Assembly: GCA_027063505.1 (NCBI GenBank)
Contig: JAMORO010000035.1
Location: forward strand, 1-32,420
Direction of reading: 5' to 3'
Length of the DNA stretch: 32,420 bases
DNA from: Sulfurimonas sp.
Lineage (GTDB): Bacteria > Campylobacterota > Campylobacteria > Campylobacterales > Sulfurimonadaceae
Part shown: positions 26,539 through 32,420 of the stretch, piece after piece
Layout of the letters: every line of letters starts with the position of its first letter
Numbering within the stretch: position 1 is the first letter of the stretch
The notes under the pieces: model-generated
Database searches by the model: none
Told to the model about the DNA's origin: nothing
Seen by the model: the letters and a program-made list of their open reading frames with translations, nothing else
Made by a program: the position numbers and the translations under genes

Positions 26539-27072
26539 CTAATATAGACCGAATTTACTATCATTTCTTTTATATAAAACACGAGTTTTCCCATCATTGT
26601 CGATGAAAATTTCGAATATTTTATCACTCTCTTTTAGATCATTTAAAACATCTTCAACTTCACGAGGTTTATAAAGTTCAAGTTCAACTGGAACTATTTC
26701 ATCCTCTTGTGCCTCAGCACTCTCTTTTACATCAACGACTTCTGCTTTAACAGCATTTAGGCCAACTTTATGGTGTCCAATTTCTTTATCATGCATACGG
26801 CGCATAGCTTTTTGAGCACGTGAAATTGCAAGATCAATAGCTGCATAAAGGTCACCATCATTTTGCTTAATGATGATAGAGTTTTTATGTGCAAGATTAA
26901 TAACAAACTCAACAACAGAGTGCTCTTTGCCTTTTTTTGTTTGTGTAGAAGCTACTACATTCACAGAGATAATATCCATGTTAAATTTATTAAGTGTTTC
27001 TATGGAAGTTGTCATGTGCGCTTTGATTGCGTCAGTAAGTTCAAGTTGTCTACCAGTTAATGAAATATTCAT
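26539..27072 (-). CDS. hpf: Long-form ribosome hibernation promoting factor HPF
   Basis: 177 residues: an N-terminal S30AE domain (ISLTGRQLELTDAIKAHM to AMRRMHDKE, about 1-100), a linker, and a C-terminal dimerisation domain (ELELYKPREVEDVLNDLK, FEIFIDNDGKTRVLYKR). Long HPF pairs two 70S ribosomes into 100S dimers in resting cells. It is the usual form outside gammaproteobacteria, so the additional short paralogue at 10228-10557 is notable. AAAAGGA lies before the ATG, and a perfect extended -10 lies 22 bases further upstream. It is tail to tail with recG. Confidence 0.95.
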   Translation of the reverse strand: MNISLTGRQLELTDAIKAHMTTSIETLNKFNMDIISVNVVASTQTKKGKEHSVVEFVINLAHKNSIIIKQNDGDLYAAIDLAISRAQKAMRRMHDKEIGHHKVGLNAVKAEVVDVKESAEAQEDEIVPVELELYKPREVEDVLNDLKESDKIFEIFIDNDGKTRVLYKRNDSKFGLY

Positions 27073-27135: not shown

Positions 27136-27594
27136 TTATAATTTTTGTATAGTTCTTCTAAAATATCGTATAGGCTCTGATGTGACAGAGGAGTCTGTAA
27201 CACTCACTGTTACATCAATTAATGCTGAACCATCTTGTGAGGGTGTAGTTACTGTGGTAAAGAGTGTACCACCATTAGTTAAGCAGTCTGCATTAGTATT
27301 ATAGATATATGAAACACCAATATCTATAGTGTATATACTATCTTGCACAAAACTCGTATTTATATCACTACATGGAGGATTCTGCGCTATGAGGAGGAGG
27401 GTGTACTCAGTAGCACTCTTAGATAAAAGTACTGACTGTTCATAAAGATAGAGATTTGTTGTCTGTTTAGAAGTTTGTGCTGTTAGGGCTAGGCTTAAAG
27501 CCATAATAGTAGCGACAACTACTATTACAGAAATAGCCATAATCATAGCAATACCATTACGAGAAGTTTTTAAAATATTGTTTTTTCTTTGCAT
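27136..27594 (-). CDS. Pilin-like protein, PilX/MshP-like
   Basis: 152 residues, with a basic leader ending in Gly (KTSRNG) and then the hydrophobic helix IAMIMAISVIVVVATIMALSL. The Glu at position +5 of ordinary pilins is missing (IAMIM), as in PilX/GspK/MshP-type members. A soluble domain with two Cys (PPCSD, NADCL) follows. It is the last gene of the cluster and overlaps the preceding pseudopilin gene by 25 bases. Only the N-terminal region supports the assignment; the role as a minor pilin or tip component is inferred from context. Confidence 0.7.
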   Translation of the reverse strand: MQRKNNILKTSRNGIAMIMAISVIVVVATIMALSLALTAQTSKQTTNLYLYEQSVLLSKSATEYTLLLIAQNPPCSDINTSFVQDSIYTIDIGVSYIYNTNADCLTNGGTLFTTVTTPSQDGSALIDVTVSVTDSSVTSEPIRYFRRTIQKL

Positions 27595-28460
27595 AATGAG
27601 TACTCCTCTACTACATCTGATTTTACACAGATTTGAATTTTTACTACTGAGCCTAAAGAGACAAATCTAAATGTACTTACATTCTCCATAAGAATAGCAC
27701 TCTTAGTATTAGCATCAGTAAGAGTCTCTCCTAACCATGGTTGATAGTTATAATAAAAAGTGAGCGTTCCCTTACCATTTGTACCTGGTGTATATACAAG
27801 AGCATTTGCTGTCCATGCTAGTTTAAAGTACTCATATACATCTATATTTGAAAAATCTACTCCTGCTATACTTGATACAGCTTGTGTTGTTGCTCCTGAA
27901 CTTGTGTCAATAGGATGCATGGCCCCTTGTTGATCTGTAATTGGAAAAGCTGGATCCCAGCCGTAGCCAGTTTGTATATCACTATTCGCTCCTATAAAAA
28001 AGAGTGCAGGGTTATCAACAGTTGTACTTCCTGTTAAGTCTTGGATCATAGAATCAACAGCAGTTAAATCAGAAGCAGGTAGTTCAAGTGCTGCTTTTGA
28101 TCCAGCATCAAGATCTATGATTCCTCCCCATGTAGGTGCAGTAGTTCCCCTTAATCCATCTATATCTTCAGCTACCCACTCTAAAACTTTTATATCACTT
28201 CCTGTCGCACTACCAATAGCTATAGGTGCTGATCCTGTAGAGACTCTTGCTATTGTTGAGTCTTTTATTCTGTATTGTAGTCTTGCTCCAATAAACTCTA
28301 AGGCATTGGCACTATTTTGTTGGAGTTCATTATTGACAGAAGTAAAAATAAAACTTTTATATGCCTGTGCTAAAAACTCTACACCAAACTTCCCAATTAT
28401 TCCCATTACTACAATTACAAAAATGAGTTCTATCATACTAAAGGCATTACGGAGTTTCAT
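27570..28460 (-). CDS. Prepilin-type protein, PilW/MshO-like
   Basis: 296 residues. A class III signal with a six-residue leader and Ala-Phe cleavage site (MKLRNA/FSMIEL) is followed by the hydrophobic helix IFVIVVMGIIGKFGVEF; Glu at +5 is present. The Ala in place of Gly at -1 also occurs in the neighbouring pseudopilin. The large soluble domain is rich in Gly, Ser, Thr and Asp, as in minor pilins. It overlaps the upstream gene by four bases and the downstream one by 25, so the three are translationally coupled. Position and length match MshO or PilW; sequence alone cannot decide. Confidence 0.75.
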   Translation of the reverse strand: MKLRNAFSMIELIFVIVVMGIIGKFGVEFLAQAYKSFIFTSVNNELQQNSANALEFIGARLQYRIKDSTIARVSTGSAPIAIGSATGSDIKVLEWVAEDIDGLRGTTAPTWGGIIDLDAGSKAALELPASDLTAVDSMIQDLTGSTTVDNPALFFIGANSDIQTGYGWDPAFPITDQQGAMHPIDTSSGATTQAVSSIAGVDFSNIDVYEYFKLAWTANALVYTPGTNGKGTLTFYYNYQPWLGETLTDANTKSAILMENVSTFRFVSLGSVVKIQICVKSDVVEEYSLCKEKTIF

Positions 28461-29071
28461 TGGTAAGTCCTCTTATCATAGTCAATCTCTCCAATATTTG
28501 CACTATAAGTAATGAGAGAAGTAATGATGTCACCAGTACTGTCTTTTATAGTAATCGTAAGTTTTTTCATATTAGAGTTTACTGCTCCACCAAAGTTAAC
28601 ATTTGCTCTTGTCACTGCAACTTTTGAAGTATATGATTTTTTATATCCTTCTGCTGAAGGCGTATTATTGACAAAAATCGCTGTGTAATCATGAGCCATA
28701 TCATCAAGTGCATCAACAGTTGTAGCACTACTATCTGATGGAGTAGTATTATTGTTTTCTAAGCATTTTCTATGTAAGTTTTCACCTATATGGCCTGGCA
28801 TAAGATGGGTTATAGTATTACAGTTTCCACTCACATTAATAACTCTAGCGTAAGCATTATTAAGTGTTGGTTCTATAGAATTTTCATCCCAGTTTACAGT
28901 AATTGCTTCATTTAGTTCTGTTGCAGCTGCAAAAATTGCTTCTTGAACAAGGTTTGAATCAACTCCCTTTGCAATGGCTTGATTCATCATAGGAAGTGAA
29001 ATTACAGAGATAGCGATAATAACAATGGCAAAGATTAGCTCAATGAGCGTAAACGCCGTTCTTCTTACCAC
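28457..29071 (-). CDS. Prepilin-type protein, PilV/MshD-like
   Basis: 204 residues with leader MVRRTA and the pilin helix FTLIELIFAIVIIAISVISL, including Glu at +5. The start is GTG at 29071: AGGAG lies six bases before it, and the codon overlaps the last codons of the giant upstream gene (ATGTGGTAA). The soluble part has two Cys (GNCNT, HRKCL). The order giant protein, PilV-like, PilW-like, PilX-like resembles the end of Vibrio MSHA clusters, except that the large gene comes first here. Confidence 0.75.
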   Translation of the reverse strand: MVRRTAFTLIELIFAIVIIAISVISLPMMNQAIAKGVDSNLVQEAIFAAATELNEAITVNWDENSIEPTLNNAYARVINVSGNCNTITHLMPGHIGENLHRKCLENNNTTPSDSSATTVDALDDMAHDYTAIFVNNTPSAEGYKKSYTSKVAVTRANVNFGGAVNSNMKKLTITIKDSTGDIITSLITYSANIGEIDYDKRTYQ

Positions 29072-32000
29072 ATGCTTCTCCTATTTGTTATACTAGCCGC
29101 AGTATTGTTTGTTGAAGAGTTTGTTTCTGTCTGTCCAGCCCAGTTACTAGAAGCATTTAAAAATTCAATTTGAAACTCATTTGTTGCTGCTGCAGGATTA
29201 TATTTGTTATATATTAACCATGTTGAAGCACTATTTTGCATAGTAGTTTTATAAGGAAATCCTTTTGTCTCATCATAAGAGAGTTGCACACTGGCTGTGG
29301 AAACTCCTGTGGCAGGTAAAGCAGTTATCACATTATCACCTTTTTGTGAAACGACACCAACATTTCCAGAACTTGCAATATGTGATGCATTAATAAACCA
29401 TCTTGGATCATCACTATTACTTAAATTGGGACTATTTGGAAGGAGTGTTGTATCACAAACATTTCCTAAAACTGTTCCTGAACAGTATATTTCATAGTAT
29501 ATGCTTACTGTAGCATTTGAGTCATTAAATCTATATCTAGGAGCATGTGTACGAGCATAAAGAAAAGTTGCTTCTTCATCTGGATTTACACTTCCTATAA
29601 TAGTTTTTGTAAGAGTTGGTAGTGTAGTATTTGTATATAAAGAGGATGCATTAATTGTTACTGTGTCACCTCTAACTTTAAATGGGTTAACAACACTGTT
29701 ATTACTTCGATTATAGTTAAAAATGAGATTTGTTGAACTATTAATGTCAGCTGCAGTTATACTTTTTACTCCATTTGTAAAATTAAGAAGAGTTGAATTA
29801 TTTATATCACTTCTATTCTCAGTCATACCTGTAATACTAGGAAGCACAAGTGCTATATCTACTGGGTTTTCCCAAGCACCTTGTGTAAAGTTGATTGTTG
29901 CTGTATTTTGAAAGTTTTCAGCTCTAACATTAAGATCAATACCTGCTGAGATATTAAGATCATTTGATAAGTATGTATATGTACTAGCAGCGAAGTTTTT
30001 AAGATGAGCATTTGTAAGTGCAAAATGATCTGGAATAAATGTAGCATTAATATCACCACATGTATAAGCACCTGTGGCACTACAATCAAGAGGGGTGTCT
30101 CCATTATCGATATCTACCTGTGCCCATACTGTATCTACAAGAAGAATATTTACTTTACCTACATCACTAAAACTTAAACCAACAGCATTTGCAGCACTAC
30201 CATCAGTGATGTCAAAATTAGTTGGAGAAAACACTAAGTTTCCAGCTAATGTTGCTGTAGCATCACTTCCATCTTTGTTGTAAATAGTTTTATTATTATC
30301 TAAATTTGTAAAAAGAGTTTGGGCATTATTTACCGTATACCCTTGTGTTTGTGTATTATTCCCAAATTGTTCTGCTATGAGAGATAGATTATAGTTCTTT
30401 CCTGCTGATAAGAGATCTATATCTTCCCCTGCTGGGGCAGTTAGTGTTAGCTTGTCCGGTCTTATTGCAAAAGAATCTCTAGAACATGTGAATTGATTAT
30501 CCTCTCCATACTCTATTTTAAAAGAGACATTTTGATAGGCATTAGTACTGTTTGTTAAGGTAATATCTTTTCTATCTTGATTATTTAGGCTTATCTTCTC
30601 TGGTGTTGTTAAAGAGACAGCATTATCACATAGTGCTTGGTTGTAGGCCTCATCTCTATTCTCATCATAATTTGGTGTAGCAATTATTGAGATATTTACA
30701 TCACCTGTATACTCTTTAAGTGTTATATTATCATTGTCTAATGCTAAAAGGCGTAATGCAATCTGTTTGTTAGCTACTTGTGTTGGAATAGCATTTAGAG
30801 CTCTCTCAACTGCTGTGGATGTACTAGTAATGATAGGATCAATATTTCCTACAAAACTTTGATTTACAATGTTAAATGCACCTGATGGAACAGTACCAAC
30901 TGTACCTGATGAGTTTAAATCTTGACACTGTGTAATAAGTTGTGCATTTTCACTCTCTATAGTAACTAAGTCTGTTTTAAATGAGGCACGAAGTTCAAGA
31001 TAATCAACAAGATTTATCTCCTCAGAGTCCTCATTGATCGTGAGGTATCCATTAAACTGTACATAGGCTATTTTAGAAGTATCTCCAAAACTTTCCGCGG
31101 GAACTAGTGTTCCACCTTGAGTCCCATTTGCACCAGTACCTATTCTCCATGTACTTGTATTCGTTTCGTCATTGTATTCTGCAATATCATTATCATCAAT
31201 ATCTGTTTTTTTATTATAATCTGATTCATTTAGGTTTCTAATGTAAGTTTCATTTTGAGTATAAGTAAAGTTATGTGTAGTGAGATATATTTGAACCAAT
31301 TCAGCAGTCTCTAAATCGGTATCGTTAACATCTTTTTTCATATTTGAAATCCAAATATTATAAGTATATGGTTCATTTGGCAAGATGTCACCAACAAAGG
31401 CTGCATCTTCAAAGATATTATCACCAGCACTATCTTTAATAGTATCTATGTAGTAACAGACTCTAGGTTCATATAGTTCTGTTGTAAAGACAGCTACACT
31501 TGGAAAATAAGTATCTTGAGAAGAGGTAAGGGTAATAGTTGCACTGCTCTGTCTATTTCCTATAATCTGTTCATGAGTATTATCTCCATCTTGTCCAATT
31601 GCATGGTTCTGTATATCTATACCTTGGTTATTTGTATAGCTTGGATTTGCTAAAAATCCACTTGTTCCGGAGTAAAAAGCATTTGTCTCATTGATACCTG
31701 TGCCATCAACATAGAGTTTATCTCCACCAATATTTTTATCTCCTTCTCCTGCAAAAATAGAGAGAGTTGATTTGACAGCACCATTAGTAGGGGTTAAAAA
31801 TCCATCAATATCGATGTCAACACTTTTAAATCCACTGCTATTTGCAACTCTACGGTATCCATCAAAGACAGAGATATTTTTGAGAGATTCTGATTGATCC
31901 TCATAGACAACAACGAGTGTCCATGCTCCAAAGTTTCCTAGTCCACTACTATCTGTTCCTGTGTAAGATTTAATATTTGCACCTGTAACCCAACCATTAA

Positions 32001-32420
32001 TATCTTCAGCTTTTACACCTGCAAGAGTAGGGAGTGGAGTATATGTACTATATGTGTAACCATTATTTCCATTTGCATATAAATCTATGAGCATTGGTGT
32101 GACAGAGAGATCTCCAACTGATGGAAGAGAGATAATAGTTGATTTTTTAGCCTCTGTTTTACTTTGAGTTAAGTTTTTTCCATTGAGATAACCTTGAGTA
32201 TAGAGGGCCGCCCATTTTACAGTGGCACTATTTGGCATTTGCAGTTTGGCCTGTGAAGAGTTATATGTGACAGGGTTATTATCTAAGTCTATGTATTGTA
32301 AATTAAGCTGTGCATTACTTGATCCACCTTGATAATCATAACAATTACCACCACTTTTTACACAAAGTACTGTATTACCAATTACGGCTATATTTCCTTT
32401 TATATTACGTGTATTACTAG
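29065..32420 (-). CDS. Very large secreted surface protein, MshQ/DUF6701-like (partial, N-terminus outside window)
   Basis: The frame is open from the stop at 29065 to the window edge without interruption, at least 1,117 codons; an internal Met at 32238 is not a credible start because coding sequence continues above it. The protein is rich in Asn, Asp, Thr and Ser, beta-like, with few Cys and no membrane helix in the visible part. AWTLVVVYEDQSESLKNIS and SVFDGYRR resemble conserved segments of large surface proteins with DUF11-like repeats. The C-terminal third (FIPDHFALTNAHLKN, then NFQNTATINFTQG) recalls DUF6701 of MshQ. Its stop overlaps the first pseudopilin start. Inferred role: pilus-associated adhesin or tip protein. 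Confidence 0.7.
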   Translation of the reverse strand, partial: SNTRNIKGNIAVIGNTVLCVKSGGNCYDYQGGSSNAQLNLQYIDLDNNPVTYNSSQAKLQMPNSATVKWAALYTQGYLNGKNLTQSKTEAKKSTIISLPSVGDLSVTPMLIDLYANGNNGYTYSTYTPLPTLAGVKAEDINGWVTGANIKSYTGTDSSGLGNFGAWTLVVVYEDQSESLKNISVFDGYRRVANSSGFKSVDIDIDGFLTPTNGAVKSTLSIFAGEGDKNIGGDKLYVDGTGINETNAFYSGTSGFLANPSYTNNQGIDIQNHAIGQDGDNTHEQIIGNRQSSATITLTSSQDTYFPSVAVFTTELYEPRVCYYIDTIKDSAGDNIFEDAAFVGDILPNEPYTYNIWISNMKKDVNDTDLETAELVQIYLTTHNFTYTQNETYIRNLNESDYNKKTDIDDNDIAEYNDETNTSTWRIGTGANGTQGGTLVPAESFGDTSKIAYVQFNGYLTINEDSEEINLVDYLELRASFKTDLVTIESENAQLITQCQDLNSSGTVGTVPSGAFNIVNQSFVGNIDPIITSTSTAVERALNAIPTQVANKQIALRLLALDNDNITLKEYTGDVNISIIATPNYDENRDEAYNQALCDNAVSLTTPEKISLNNQDRKDITLTNSTNAYQNVSFKIEYGEDNQFTCSRDSFAIRPDKLTLTAPAGEDIDLLSAGKNYNLSLIAEQFGNNTQTQGYTVNNAQTLFTNLDNNKTIYNKDGSDATATLAGNLVFSPTNFDITDGSAANAVGLSFSDVGKVNILLVDTVWAQVDIDNGDTPLDCSATGAYTCGDINATFIPDHFALTNAHLKNFAASTYTYLSNDLNISAGIDLNVRAENFQNTATINFTQGAWENPVDIALVLPSITGMTENRSDINNSTLLNFTNGVKSITAADINSSTNLIFNYNRSNNSVVNPFKVRGDTVTINASSLYTNTTLPTLTKTIIGSVNPDEEATFLYARTHAPRYRFNDSNATVSIYYEIYCSGTVLGNVCDTTLLPNSPNLSNSDDPRWFINASHIASSGNVGVVSQKGDNVITALPATGVSTASVQLSYDETKGFPYKTTMQNSASTWLIYNKYNPAAATNEFQIEFLNASSNWAGQTETNSSTNNTAASITNRRSMW

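Follow-up and report, generated by a model that had tools for sequence, protein, structure and literature searches.

A giant modular protein coupled to three minor pilins in Sulfurimonas and its relatives: a candidate MshQ-like pilus tip adhesin

Why would the gene of a very large surface protein run directly into three genes for minor pilins? The question is raised by a contig of a draft Sulfurimonas genome (2.10 Mb, 93% complete, 4.8% contamination), which among named organisms stands closest to Sulfurimonas and other Campylobacterota. The window analysed here is this whole contig (C35), 32,420 bases long. Near its end lies a giant frame, open at the 5′ side and followed by the genes V, W and X (Table 1). 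The original prediction was that the giant is assembled together with the pilins, as a tip adhesin or secreted cargo. Of these two, a tip adhesin carried by a pilus is the better supported. The giant is probably an MshQ-like adhesin, displayed on a Cts/MSHA-type pilus that MshD/O/P-like minor pilins prime.

Table 1. Features of the giant-pilin locus in the window
Feature	Coordinates	Strand	Remarks
Giant modular surface protein (MshQ-like)	29065..32418	-	1117 codons visible; 5′ end past contig edge
Visible N-terminal module, residues 1-315	31474..32418	-	all-beta, jelly-roll-like sandwich (AF2 model)
Ig-like domain, residues 316-497	30928..31473	-	VIA Z 8-9 to Gram-positive pilin/MSCRAMM/integrin domains
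Tandem Ig/FN3-like rod, residues 540-1093	29140..30801	-	family-wide conservation; DUF6701-related
C-terminal tail ending TNRRSMW	29068..29142	-	conserved; predicted disordered
AGGAG, ribosome-binding site of V	29078..29082	-	inside RR codons of the giant's tail
V, PilV/MshD-like minor pilin	28457..29071	-	204 aa; GTG start; 7-nt overlap with giant
W, PilW/MshO-like minor pilin	27570..28460	-	296 aa; conserved C-terminus LCKEKTIF; 4-nt overlap
X, PilX/MshP/GspK-like minor pilin	27136..27594	-	152 aa; 25-nt overlap
Presumed RaiA/HPF-type ribosome hibernation gene	26539..27072	-	downstream neighbour, kept in relatives

Conservation of the gene chain

The window frames reproduce exactly the chain of overlaps (7, 4 and 25 nt) on which the original prediction was built. 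Profile searches recognize the prepilin signatures N_methyl/TIGR02532 in V and W; the N-terminus of X is GspK/PilX-like, at a level below profile reach. Giant homologues are found in 43 of the 60 relatives searched. A GTDB-wide scan returned 180 relatives of the giant, 80 of which were kept, nearly all labelled Campylobacterota. One family member is carried by a contig labelled Bacteroidia (L171, RZYM01000064.1), which is probably mis-binned.

The chain goes well beyond chance: among 67 relative loci with at least 2.6 kb of downstream sequence, 61 carry all three coupled pilin genes. Of these full-chain loci, from Campylobacterota relatives, 54 of the 61 have a giant-V overlap of exactly 7 nt, 52 a V-W overlap of 1 or 4 nt, and 50 a W-X overlap of 25 nt. 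The W-X overlap (27570-27594 in the window) is dual-coding, as the LCKEKTIF end of W, read in the +1 frame, gives the MQRKNxIL start of X. The conserved start of X is thus largely a +1 reading of the conserved end of W, and in some relatives X probably starts further in. The next gene, of RaiA/HPF type to judge by its sequence, follows the pilin genes in 51 of 57 loci and is not thought to be part of the pilus.

The partners are separated at a few loci. L049 and L058 have a giant without pilins directly behind it, and L190 and L191 have the pilins without an adjacent giant, so V, W and X do not need the giant everywhere. These loci could suggest that the giant is an independent surface protein whose place in the operon is only a regulatory convenience. 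This is highly improbable, however, given that the overlap sizes, the gene order and the tail of the giant are kept across several families, and that pilus gene clusters elsewhere begin with these same four genes.

Variants of the giant gene itself also occur. At L025 (5130-9782) it is broken into two frames of 698 and 848 aa, possibly a pseudogene or an assembly error. Two giants lie close together in some genomes (L161, L162, G130), suggesting duplication or alternative tips. At L058 (genome G059), frames of 159 and 161 aa precede the giant and share a near-identical signal peptide start (MKNFIRVI...), as if start cassettes had been duplicated.

Architecture of the giant protein and its tail

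Residue 2 of the window protein aligns to residue 277 of a 1386-residue relative (L104), so about 275 aa of the window giant, signal peptide included, are missing. The length of complete giants runs from 654 to 2706 aa, with a median of 1392; the L058 giant measures 2721 aa. Most complete giants have a signal-peptide-like start, with a strong hydrophobic stretch in 53 of 64, and the protein would be exported by Sec.

For the N-terminal half that the window shows, AF2 gives a model (pLDDT 86) with a jelly-roll-like domain and an Ig-like domain. The former resembles accessory domains of carbohydrate enzymes in Foldseek and VIA comparisons (BuGH86: VIA Z 9.9, 119 aligned, rmsd 3.2), and is a putative ligand-binding module. 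The C-terminal 578 residues are common to the family and are modelled as a row of Ig-like domains (pLDDT 92.3, pTM 0.83). Their folds resemble the adhesins FdeC, invasin and InvE, together with many unrelated Ig rods (Foldseek, VIA). Complement C3/C5, the top Foldseek match, was rejected as a relationship because it reflects generic Ig-like beads, and the VIA match list for the rod was likewise set aside as common folds. A viral fold library gave only generic matches to the giant.

Searches with the window giant brought no assignment in Pfam, NCBIfam or PHROGs and no sequence match in the PDB. Among relatives the N-terminal modules vary, and include DUF11, Big_9, Calx-beta, cadherin-like, He_PIG, LamG and pentaxin-like domains. 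DUF11, one of two families that the original prediction had proposed to look for, is absent from the visible window protein and present in 5 of 31 relatives. An autotransporter or type I secretion domain of its own, held beforehand to be incompatible with assembly on a pilus, was found in no relative scanned: the window protein and the families listed for 31 relatives contain no autotransporter beta-barrel and no RTX/T1SS C-terminal domain, and the C-terminus consists of the Ig-like rod and the tail. The giant is a modular secreted protein with adhesin-like N-terminal folds. It would fold into a long rod, in which variable adhesin-like modules are followed by a conserved Ig-like section of DUF6701 type and a flexible tail.

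The final 25 residues are predicted to be disordered, yet they close with a conserved NRRxxW end. Among 78 tails ending in W, position -4 is R in 72 and position -5 is R or K in 76. The same stretch of DNA serves V, since the AGGAG at 29082-29078 lies six bases ahead of its GTG start. AGG-AGA encodes the RR position in 51 of the 78 tails although AGG makes up only 8.5% of Arg codons in the body of the giant, so the ribosome-binding signal is real. That the tail RR is a mere artefact of this signal was considered and rejected: the basic residues and the W persist at loci without the overlap (L116, L167, L168), so the tail is constrained as protein too. Translational coupling links the giant to the pilins through these RR codons. 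We infer that the tail acts as a pilin-binding peptide or hook. V, W and X would form a pilus priming complex that holds the giant by its C-terminal region, probably by the tail.

Kinship with MSHA components and the pilus machinery

The set had been predicted to be MshDOPQ-like with the giant gene first, and a search for DUF6701 had been proposed along with that for DUF11. DUF6701 (PF20419) has no match in the window protein or elsewhere in the window genome, an absence attributed to divergence; relatives do match above the Pfam cut-off. The trimmed C-terminal region of the L049 giant (genome G051) scores 81.8 bits against a cut-off of 27; over the N-terminal part, identity between this giant and the window protein is 39%. 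In full-length L049 the domain is missed by hmmscan, so whole-protein scans of giants are unreliable. The DUF6701 cut-off is passed in 8 of 200 Campylobacterota genomes. Comparison of the giant family with DUF6701 of Aeromonas and Vibrio by hhalign gave E 1.2e-5 and a probability of 81% over 188 colinear columns.

The pilins were compared with the shared pilin helix removed and with single sequences on the Msh and Gsp sides. V then matches MshD weakly (E 6e-4); the matches of W to MshO and of X to MshP were confined to the common N-terminal part. Together with the DUF6701 matches of relatives and with paralogous sets at the head of MSHA-type clusters, this supports the predicted likeness.

As in the mshD-mshO-mshP-mshQ genes of Vibrio and Aeromonas, three minor pilins are coupled to one large DUF6701-related protein. 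The pilins are of similar size (204/296/152 aa in the window, 226/309/157 aa in the Aeromonas msh operon L088), and the machine type, with an MshL secretin and an MshE-type ATPase, is shared. Unlike in Aeromonas L088, where the three pilins precede an mshQ broken by insertion sequences, they follow the giant in the window. The giant family also differs in a far diverged DUF6701 part, in very large and variable N-terminal modules and in the NRRxxW tail. The window set lies apart from its machine, whereas the set of a second locus heads a cluster. MshQ of Vibrio has its function listed as 'none' (PMC4624765). Through a giant family that is genetically tied to three minor pilins, a tip-adhesin role of DUF6701 proteins becomes directly testable.

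The second locus is found in nine genomes, where a paralogous giant-V-W-X set heads an MSHA-type pilus gene cluster. Its V, W and X match the window family, helix removed, with E values of 1.6e-22, 7e-42 and 2e-27, respectively. The set is followed by a fourth pilin, MshI-, MshJ/PilO- and MshK-like proteins, a secretin and then an ATPase part, consisting of an AAA ATPase, a TPR protein, a PilB/MshE-type ATPase with a c-di-GMP motif, and PilC; two divergent pilins are also present. Individual loci depart from this order: two unrelated genes separate giant and V in L205, the segment running from MshK through the TPR protein is out of line in L211, and single frames are unclear in L204 and L207. 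Linkage to an MSHA-type machine is thus displayed by paralogous sets in other genomes and not within the window.

The original prediction would also have been overturned by a genome devoid of pilus machinery. Such machinery is present outside the window: four secretins, three ATPases of PilB/GspE type and two of PilT/PilU type, these last two above cut-off. Contig C4 encodes a full type II secretion system (T2SS), and contig C8 an MSHA/Cts-type machine with PilC, a PilB-type ATPase of the CtsE class and a secretin that exceeds the MshL cut-off (266 vs 250 bits). A further MSHA-like set, split between contigs C26 and C37, comprises pilins, a secretin resembling MshL and an ATPase of MshE type that bears a c-di-GMP motif. 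On C4, a further very large frame (L081:3-4244; at least 1413 codons, 5′ open) lies just upstream of the T2SS genes.

With three PilB/GspE-type machines in one genome, the assignment of the giant to the C8 machine rests on other genomes. The giant is present in 47 of 80 genomes compared, and a CtsE-class ATPase in 46 of these 47 versus 7 of the 33 without a giant (Fisher p 1.3e-13, with genomes counted as independent despite shared descent). In the sole exception, G054, the CtsE-class ATPase is split between contigs. In fourteen giant-bearing genomes a CtsE-class enzyme is the only PilB/GspE-type ATPase, and a genome of the same genus without a CtsE-class ATPase (G010) is also without a giant. 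The C26/C37 machine, with its secretin, ATPase and pilins, is a rival candidate, but its ATPase class occurs in only 4 of the 80 genomes, 3 of them giant-bearing, and cannot serve the family generally. That it, instead of the C8 machine, serves the set here is distinctly unlikely.

The full T2SS on C4 also bears on the second half of the original alternative, in which a T2SS-like pseudopilus would release the giant into the medium as cargo. Minor pseudopilins of T2SSs are thought to contact cargo. The T2SS of the window genome, however, has pseudopilins of its own, and these (GspH/I/J/K, as single sequences) give no signal against V, W and X once the helix is removed. Furthermore, the fourteen single-ATPase genomes have no second PilB/GspE-class enzyme beside CtsE, and the coupling of a single large protein to three pilins, within a cluster of MSHA type, is better suited to a tip. 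Release as cargo is accordingly very unlikely. In the preferred reading, the CtsE-class MSHA-type machine on C8 would extrude the giant-pilin complex as a pilus tip through the MshL-type secretin, and PilT/PilU-type ATPases could retract it. The fourteen genomes also have one or two PilT-sized ATPases.

A comparable arrangement is offered by PilY1 and FimU-PilVWXE of Pseudomonas and Myxococcus, in which a large putative adhesin and a minor-pilin priming complex are proposed to sit at the pilus tip (PMC7541494, PMC5979040). The PilC/PilY1 beta-propeller family is not among the matches of the window protein at E<=1, and unlike PilY1 the giant has an Ig-like rod as its conserved part (AF2 model). 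There is precedent for pairing a large tip protein with minor pilins, in PilY1 and, judged by gene order, in MSHA. What the present set adds is a group of diverged DUF6701-related giants whose adhesin modules can be swapped, the dual coding of their tail, a permuted gene order and a connection between ctsT and a tip set of MSHA type; no description of the giant family was found in the literature collection searched.

The ctsT slot and Campylobacter

Many relatives have the giant behind bamD/lon and fliW, and proC is present at some of these loci and missing from others. For the window genome the upstream part of this slot falls outside the contig, and the position is read from relatives. We take lon-bamD-fliW to be the order at the ctsT locus of Campylobacter jejuni, and this presumed order, the position, the entries for cj1076 and cj1077 and a length of 100 aa together identify the slot. 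In C. jejuni, ctsT is cj1077, encodes 100 aa, adjoins proC (cj1076) and is counted among the transformation genes (PMC8308473).

In Campylobacter-type genomes the slot lon-bamD-fliW-proC holds a pilin of 98-100 aa (V), W and X, and no giant (L183, L184, L186); L185 has the same slot without a listed proC frame. Further genomes of that family have the slot occupied by a giant, 798-1239 aa long (L187-L189). The Campylobacter-type X and W match those of the window (E 1.8e-7 and 3.6e-4), and the CtsT-sized V resembles the window V in the helix only. The locus in Campylobacter therefore has the look of a reduced giant locus. The Cts system of C. jejuni (ctsT locus, ctsRDPXEF) thus shares with the giant system the slot seen in relatives, the V-W-X order and the CtsE-class ATPase; it differs in lacking a giant and in its shortened V. 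No PilT/PilU-type ATPase was found in the two Campylobacter-type genomes tested, both without a giant (G142, G150).

Occupation of a transformation locus, with X and W homologous to those of the window, raises the question of whether this is a competence pilus whose giant mainly binds DNA at the tip instead of acting as an adhesin. A precedent exists in Thermus, where the large protein ComZ is linked to minor pilins (PilA1-3) and described as a DNA receptor associated with the tip of a competence pilus (PMC6561018). ComZ, however, is described as a pilin, whereas the giant begins with what looks like a signal peptide and lacks the pilin helix. ComEC is present, in line with a competence role, but was discarded as a marker of competence: it occurs in 28 of 28 genomes tested, including those without giant or machine, and does not discriminate. 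Campylobacter-type ctsT loci manage without any giant, so transformation there does not require one. Among the variable modules, which are lectin- or adhesin-like, there is no DNA-binding family. A mainly DNA-binding giant is thus unlikely.

Tentatively, the Cts pseudopilus may be a stripped MSHA-type pilus, with the ancestral giant and the retraction ATPases lost in the C. jejuni lineage and a shortened V-W-X set kept; we regard this as possible, though somewhat less than an even chance. If so, the ancestral machine of Campylobacterota bore a giant modular protein at its tip, with V-W-X as primer and the NRRxxW tail as hook, and the shortened V-W-X set remaining at the ctsT locus of the C. 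jejuni lineage serves DNA uptake. The giant would then be the swappable, fast-changing tip of a dual-purpose pilus. Such a tie between an adhesive-type pilus and the ctsT locus would explain why a transformation gene shares its operon with two little-studied pilin-like genes. Type IV pilus genes whose affinities are a mixture of T4a, T4b and MSH have been reported for Thiovulum (PMC9938260).
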